Shown piece by piece: positions 18,749 through 21,560 of a stretch of 64,000 nucleotides of DNA. A program made the position numbers and the translations under genes. The DNA is from Salarchaeum sp. JOR-1 (GTDB lineage Archaea; Halobacteriota; Halobacteria; Halobacteriales; Halobacteriaceae). The DNA is taken from the NCBI RefSeq assembly GCF_007833275.1, contig NZ_CP042241.1, positions 930,001 to 994,000 on the forward strand, given 5' to 3'. Every line of letters starts with the position of its first letter. Position 1 is the first letter of the stretch. The notes under the pieces were generated by a model. That model worked only from the letters and a program-made list of their open reading frames with translations. It made no database searches and was not told the DNA's origin.

Positions 18749-18772
18749 AGAGCGCCCAGGCCGGAATTTGAA
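18749..18772. repeat. Duplicated 3' end of the tRNA-Thr gene
   Basis: Bases 18749-18772 match 18871-18894, the 3' end of tRNA-Thr and its flank, at 22 of 24 positions, including an exact 12-mer CCGGAATTTGAA. The offset is 122 bases. The 5' half of a tRNA is absent, so this is not a second gene. Between the copies, 18808-18822 read in reverse include CGGAATT and may be a degenerate inverted copy. Such copies are typical traces of site-specific integration at a tRNA, but no integrase is present. Confidence 0.55.
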
Positions 18773-18874
18773 CAGCGTCAGACTCCCGTTGGTCGTCTGA
18801 CTGTCCGTAATTCCGAGACGGCTCGCGTTCGTCACGTCCACGAAGCCGCTGGCTTCGCGATGTGATTCGGAGAG

Positions 18875-18946
18875 AGCCTAGGCCGGAATTTGAATCCGGG
18901 GTCTCGTCCTTACCAAGGACGCGCTTTACCGCTAAGCTACCCAGGC
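18875..18946 (-). tRNA. tRNA-Thr (anticodon GGT)
   Basis: Read on the reverse strand, the acceptor arm GCCTGGG pairs with CCTAGGC (one G-U pair). The D-arm is GCTT/AAGC, the anticodon arm CGTCC-TTGGTAA-GGACG gives anticodon GGT, and the T-arm CCGGA-TTCAAAT-TCCGG is regular. No intron and no encoded CCA are seen. A copy of its 3' end lies 122 bases downstream. Confidence 0.96.
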
Positions 18947-21367: not shown

Positions 21368-21399
21368 CGCAGTAGAAATGCGCTGGCCGGGAATTGAAC
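21368..21399. repeat. Duplicated 3' end of tRNA-Gly with flank (direct copy)
   Basis: A 32-base block at 21368-21399 is identical to 21479-21510, which covers the 3' end of tRNA-Gly and its downstream flank. The offset is 111 bases. The 5' half of the tRNA is absent. Together with the inverted copy at 21441-21469 it forms a three-unit structure. Confidence 0.9.
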
Positions 21400-21440
21400 T
21401 GGGCGAGCCGGTTCTCGCTCTGCTCCGCTGCGACTCGCGT

Positions 21441-21469
21441 GCTCAACTCCCGGGAGCGATTTCACTGCT
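21441..21469. repeat. Inverted, degenerate copy of the tRNA-Gly 3' end
   Basis: The reverse complement of this segment reads GCAGT, GAAAT, CGCT, CGGGAGTTGAGC in order, matching the repeat unit blocks GCAGT, AGAAAT, GCGCT, CGGGAATTGAAC with two or three small gaps. It lies between the two direct copies, so either could pair with it to form a hairpin. Confidence 0.6.
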
Positions 21470-21489
21470 CACTTTGGTCGCAGTAGAAA

Positions 21490-21560
21490 TGCGCTGGCCG
21501 GGAATTGAACCCGGGCTATGAGCTTGGGAAGCTCATGTCCTACCACTAGACCACCAGCGC
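21490..21560 (-). tRNA. tRNA-Gly (anticodon CCC)
   Basis: On the reverse strand the acceptor GCGCTGG pairs with CCAGCGC. The D-arm is GTCT/GGAC, the anticodon arm TGAGC-TTCCCAA-GCTCA gives anticodon CCC, and the T-arm CCGGG-TTCAATT-CCCGG is perfect. No intron is seen. Its 3' end is duplicated 111 bases downstream. Confidence 0.96.

Follow-up and report, generated by a model that had tools for sequence, protein, structure and literature searches.

The window, by which we mean the whole 64,000-nucleotide stretch of Salarchaeum sp. JOR-1 DNA analysed here, contains a tRNA-Gly(CCC) gene on its minus strand that is followed by partial copies of its own 3' end and by two hairpins (Table 1). The 32 bases at 21368-21399 are identical to those at 21479-21510, at a spacing of 111 bp and at exactly the positions given in the initial annotation; given the location and strand of the gene, the proximal repeat consists of the last 21 nt of the tRNA and 11 nt of its trailer. 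Read on the tRNA strand, the order of the unit is X (the tRNA 3' end), hairpin A, X' (an inverted copy), hairpin C and X again, and the 11 nt at 21479-21489 serve both as the start of hairpin A and as part of the 32-bp direct repeat. The T-arm part of X' (21441-21452, CGGGAGTTGAGC) could pair with either copy of X. The inverted, degraded copy had likewise been noticed before, and it is real: about 27 bases of X' align with the unit's reverse complement at the cost of two mismatches and three gaps of one base each, and the score of 16 exceeds that of all 2000 dinucleotide shuffles of the spacer (mean 7.0, maximum 12.5). Strong RNA folds are predicted for such units. The first 36 nt behind tRNA-Gly(CCC) are shared without change by the tRNA-Gly(GCC) unit elsewhere in this genome (L046). 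Recurrence of the arrangement at many tRNA genes, here and in other genomes, makes an assembly artefact very unlikely. The window itself holds a second unit, at tRNA-Thr(GGT), that resembles the first in kind and is more degraded; the tRNA-Pro gene of the window has no unit.

Table 1. Features of the two tRNA-associated units in the window (positions of the whole stretch)
Feature	Position	Strand	Remarks
tRNA-Gly(CCC)	21490..21560	-	Host of the unit; ARAGORN; Rfam RF00005, 70.6 bits
X, proximal copy	21490..21510	-	From G53 (start on the T-loop side) to the discriminator base of tRNA-Gly
Hairpin A	21460..21489	-	TTTCTACTGC...GCAGTGAAA; adjoins the tRNA-Gly 3' end
X'	21441..21470	-	Inverted, degraded copy of X and trailer; overlaps an arm of hairpin A
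Hairpin C	21403..21438	-	GCGAGTCGCAG...ACCGGCTCGC; variable paired stems, conserved internal loop AGTCGCAG / ACCG[T/G]CT
X, distal copy	21379..21399	-	Direct copy of the tRNA-Gly 3' end
Trailer, second copy	21368..21378	-	11 nt, TTTCTACTGCG; terminates the 32-bp repeat
tRNA-Thr(GGT)	18874..18946	-	Host of the second unit; ARAGORN
Inverted T-arm copy	18801..18815	-	tRNA-Thr unit
Hairpin C counterpart	18776..18803	-	tRNA-Thr unit; CAGTCAGACGACCAACGGGAGTCTGACG
Direct copy of tRNA-Thr 3' end	18753..18773	-	3 mismatches

We surveyed every tRNA gene of the window genome (G000) and of G001, the only other genome of the same genus searched, for a copy of the tRNA's own last 21 nt within 400 nt downstream. 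X copies follow 14 of the 42 distinct tRNA genes in G000 (19 copies) and 17 of the 43 in G001 (22 copies), so that about a third of the tRNA genes in these two complete haloarchaeal genomes bear units, while reversed or shuffled decoy queries returned 0 copies. Nine tRNAs have a copy in both genomes and 13 in one only (five in G000, eight in G001), and the hosts include Gly, Leu, Arg, Thr, Val, Ser, Lys, Asn, Asp, Tyr, Met and Glu tRNAs. A BLAST search of the region against 98 relatives recovered the full arrangement, sometimes in tandem, at tRNA-Gly genes of several families. The orthologous tRNA-Gly next to nadE is followed by units in Halobacterium sp. TGN-42-S1, Halomicrococcus gelatinilyticus (five copies), Halorientalis persicus and Natronobiforma; none was detected at the nadE-adjacent loci fetched from Natrinema, Halorussus, Halogeometricum and Halosimplex. 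The comparison with relatives that the initial annotation had proposed thus uncovered a family that extends across the haloarchaea, rather than a repeat confined to this site. Altogether we collected 172 units, which represent 31 tRNA types and 121 loci; since the window unit and the core motif of hairpin C served as probes, this sample is biased by the way it was collected, and the two-genome survey alone is complete. Units measure about 60-180 bp and consist almost entirely of non-coding hairpin sequence that carries no gene, the most compact form being three identical 72-bp units in tandem at tRNA-Leu(TAG) (L068, G000:C2 around 1360236). We found no description of these haloarchaeal units in the PMC literature searched.

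Two further types of structure were observed near the same genes. A second, shorter unit, mostly of 65-74 bp (CTCCCTGCGGTC...GCCGCCCGACTTCCC..GCGGGAATCCCGGCCGGCGCA), copies the acceptor end only and lies downstream of the main unit in several genomes (L005, L010, L024, L075, L126). On the 5' side there are mirror-image units that adjoin the gene and in which a copy of the initial ~11 nt of the tRNA is followed by a hairpin and then by an inverted copy; they were found at 27 of 236 tRNAs versus 3 in the shuffled control, nearly all of them at tRNA-Gly (L005, L007, L010, L018, L029, L030, L116, L118, L125 and others).

Set side by side, G000 and G001 provide exact empty and filled alleles. At Arg(GCG), Asn(GTT), Asp(GTC) and Tyr(GTA), the trailer of the empty genome resumes exactly where the distal X ends in the filled genome, and at Leu(CAA), where both genomes have the trailer hairpin, the X'-C-X block lies inside it. 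As for the window locus, G000 has the unit and G001 lacks it, with a downstream flank too diverged for an exact junction. Together with the exact matches at the other four tRNAs, this bears out the earlier suggestion of a recent duplication or insertion at the tRNA 3' end, and from this unpolarised comparison of two genomes, units look as if they have been gained or lost between sister species. Among the 172 units, 126 have the left edge of X 1-2 nt before T54, and in 69 the right edge lies no more than 1 nt from where the annotated tRNA ends. Arrays are polar: when the nearest and farthest copies are compared, the tRNA-proximal one is less diverged in 19 cases, more diverged in 1 and equally diverged in 16 (p = 4e-5), so new units seem to arrive beside the tRNA.

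The inverted copy agrees base by base with the tRNA that it follows. At tRNA position 57, X' tracks its host, with A facing T in 105 units, G facing C in 41 and a mismatch in 9 (p = 3e-27). Over the whole 5-nt T-stem, X' fits its own tRNA with 1.67 mean mismatches versus 2.53 for other tRNAs; this separation is weak because the pairing of X' fades towards the acceptor, and the per-position test is the clearer one. Some units share hairpin C at different tRNAs. Hairpin C is the same at 31 of 32 bases (97%) between Leu(TAA) and Leu(TAG) in G000 and at about 38 of 41 bases (93%) between Val(TAC) and Leu(TAA) in G001, and over both cases X' fits its own tRNA at 10 of the 12 informative positions and the partner's at 0 (18:0 for the own tRNA if the three identical Leu(TAG) units are counted separately). 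Flanks that match the local tRNA argue against a cassette that carries its own X'. The cases are few, two in all, and much the same picture would result if units already in place had later exchanged their hairpin C.

The core of hairpin C, AGTCGCAG followed by a stem and ACCGTCT, is present in 108 of 146 haloarchaeal genomes, in which the reversed control pattern is rare, and elsewhere among the archaea of the phylum it is at control level (3 of about 200 genomes); only 2 sites of the window genome match the exact core pattern. Of 101 sampled core sites, 77 follow a tRNA of the same strand at a distance of less than 450 nt, and the remainder belong mostly to a dispersed family of one genus or are accompanied by a copy of a tRNA end. 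In that genus the same hairpin C lies in a dispersed repeat away from tRNAs, between ...GACCTCGGA and TCCGGTGGCGAGCG...GGGGGCTTTC (L085-L094, L233, L235, L263). Relative to the tRNA, hairpin C is forward in 79 cases and inverted in 0. Its stems vary and yet remain paired, as would be expected of a structured RNA: in a set of 103 sites for which the loop AGTCGCAG/ACCGTCT served as the search anchor, the first outer pair beside this conserved internal loop is A-T in 35, G-C in 35 and C-G in 24. Such covariation implies that a single strand must fold. Selection on RNA normally leaves many G-U pairs, and the G-U tolerance that marks a structured RNA is not seen here: at the four most secure positions of the hairpin C stems the ratio of G-U to A-C is 6:6, versus 66:2 in the tRNA stems of the same loci (p = 7e-5). 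In the pairing of X with X', this ratio is 23:41, excluding three positions of recurrent wobble and the weakly paired last position. From the lack of a G-U excess we place the folding requirement at the level of DNA. The apical loops, mostly GAA, GGA, GCA or GTA, agree with this, GNA loops being known to form unusually stable DNA mini-hairpins; they fit such a structure and do not prove it. Hairpin stability shows no correlation with the divergence of X from the tRNA, so something maintains the structure in place, a result that neither supports nor excludes mobility.

Taken together, the compared genomes suggest, with a probability that we put at roughly 0.58, that a non-coding DNA fold-back element sits behind tRNA genes, spreads among them and re-copies its flanks from each target. 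Such an element would spread at the DNA level. The ends of hairpin C (...GAAC and GTTC...) correspond to T-loop sequence common to most tRNA genes, and could allow it to dock in the T-loop of a new tRNA gene, whereupon flanks would be copied from the target tRNA on both sides to give X'-C-X, the new unit being inserted between the tRNA and any older unit. Because the copy would start in the T-loop and stop at the tRNA end, the tRNA stays intact. The copying step might be fold-back (snap-back) repair synthesis or the action of a tyrosine recombinase on a folded single strand, between which the data do not decide; tyrosine recombinase domains have 13 matches in the window genome. Recombination between the two copies of X would remove a unit and restore an exact empty site. 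That these units form a gene-free, minimal class of mobile DNA that docks at the T-loop and has both flanks rebuilt from the target tRNA, leaving the host gene intact, is a more far-reaching proposal that we advance only tentatively.

The same features might instead reflect an RNA element in the primary transcript of the tRNA, in which hairpins A and C would act in 3'-end processing, in termination or as a small RNA, and X' would pair alternatively with the T-arm or with the downstream copy. Units lie on the tRNA strand and have strong predicted RNA folds, and the E. coli rtT repeat, similar in layout, is annotated as a small RNA (rttR). What speaks most strongly for such a function is the constant orientation of hairpin C, which an RNA function would require, together with its undiminished stability while X diverges. 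Against it stand the absence of any G-U preference in the stems and in X/X', when tRNA stems at the same loci show a strong one, and the lack of an Rfam match. Sister species, moreover, differ freely in the presence of units, more than half of the tRNA genes have none, and copying extends to the acceptor part of X, even though X' hardly pairs there. The hairpins at the 3' side of the tRNA that the initial annotation envisaged may form as RNA, but their stems do not show RNA-type conservation, and we consider an RNA element unlikely to be the explanation. It is rather improbable that nothing moves at all and that X' and the second X arise in place by local template switching when tRNA genes are replicated or repaired. 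This would account for the inverted copy and for X' and X being always local, similar mirror structures exist on the 5' side of tRNA-Gly genes, and stem-loop-primed synthesis is known for polymerase theta (PMC11292364). Hairpin C and its fixed internal loop, however, are not part of the tRNA and yet are common to different tRNAs, to different genera and to the dispersed family away from tRNAs, and template switching would erase the mismatches of the internal loop rather than keep them.

Attachment-site scars, in which deletion of the body of an ordinary integrated virus or plasmid leaves a duplicated tRNA 3' end, had been raised from the start as a known route to the direct copies. X, which runs from the T-loop to the 3' end, lies in the range known for attachment sites of archaeal integrases (PMC8371274), known haloarchaeal proviruses have partial copies of tRNAs at their flanks (PMC3119063), and the recombinase domains of the window genome are compatible with such integrations. 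As in proviruses and integrative plasmids at archaeal tRNA genes, the far end of the insert carries a direct copy of the 3' part of the tRNA; unlike them, the units have no body, no integrase and no other gene, and contain an additional inverted copy and hairpin C. We agree with the initial annotation that the inverted middle copy is an oddity that loss of a body leaves unexplained. A real element does not support such a loss either: at L223:1035-7400, tRNA-Thr(GGT) is separated from an older fold-back unit by an integrated element of 6.1 kb that carries a tyrosine recombinase gene and, by eye, N6-methylase-like and HNH-like genes, and the right end of this element has a longer identity block and neither X' nor hairpin C. 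The same A-X'-C module would also have to result from hundreds of independent body losses. Viral carriage is not apparent either: a specific 21-base pattern hit only two contigs, both of unrelated, tRNA-free sequence, none of the 119 examined among the viral-contig matches listed for a looser motif had a hairpin or T-loop context, and BLAST against phages and plasmids returned only a megaplasmid-borne tRNA-Gly unit (Natronorubrum bangense) and a short tRNA match. On the strength of the L223 element and of the hairpin C shared among units, the provirus scar was rejected as a candidate, and we regard attachment scars in general as very improbable.

Known systems offer only partial likenesses. 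Nearest in layout are the E. coli tyrT/tyrV repeats (rtT RNA, rttR, Rfam RF00391), for which we claim no common descent, no sequence relationship having been shown; the covariance model of rtT RNA has no match in the window at its gathering score. In both systems a repeat lies behind a tRNA gene, and each of its units closes with a copy of that tRNA's 3' end (in E. coli, 19 nt every 178 bp). The 178-bp tyrT unit (L323, K-12 1285800-1288000) also has an inverted T-arm copy between the direct copies of the tRNA end (GGGGAAGGATGAGAAGCTT versus GGGGAAGGATTCGAACCTT, 14 of the first 17 bases, score 13, shuffle p = 0.0007). To our knowledge no inverted T-arm copy has been reported in the tyrT repeats, the older tyrT papers lying mostly outside the literature searched. 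The E. coli repeat differs in being restricted to one tRNA locus, with near-identical tandem units that overlap the tpr gene and no AGTCGCAG/ACCGTCT hairpin C, whereas the haloarchaeal units occur at 31 tRNA types and turn over rapidly between sister species.

Integron cassettes with their attC sites are similar in that an array grows beside a fixed site and each unit is closed by an imperfect inverted repeat whose stems vary and whose unpaired bases are conserved. They differ in that the haloarchaeal units have no genes and that X' matches the local target and does not travel with a cassette. We rejected an integron cassette array, since no integron integrase (TIGR02249) scored above the family cut-off in any of 59 haloarchaeal genomes and since in both informative cases X' and X matched the local tRNA, as an attC of the unit's own would not. 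The palindromes of REP type, served by Y1 (TnpA-REP) transposases, are likewise short dispersed hairpins with conserved mismatches, and one haloarchaeal genus has the dispersed hairpin C family away from tRNAs. Unlike REP/Y1 systems, G001 contains its 22 unit copies with no match to a Y1 transposase, which makes a dedicated enzyme of this type unnecessary; Y1 (PF01797) matches are also missing from G016 and G057, where units are present. Dependence on a Y1 transposase was rejected because of its absence from G001, and the enzyme does not accompany recent copies in every genome.

If the fold-back reading is true, it would represent a new route by which very small pieces of DNA spread while leaving essential genes undamaged. 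Units would also clutter the tRNA sites that viruses and plasmids use, adding extra attachment-like sequences to them. The old and unexplained tyrT repeats of E. coli would gain a possible family of parallels, and re-copied flanks make the proposed mechanism directly testable.
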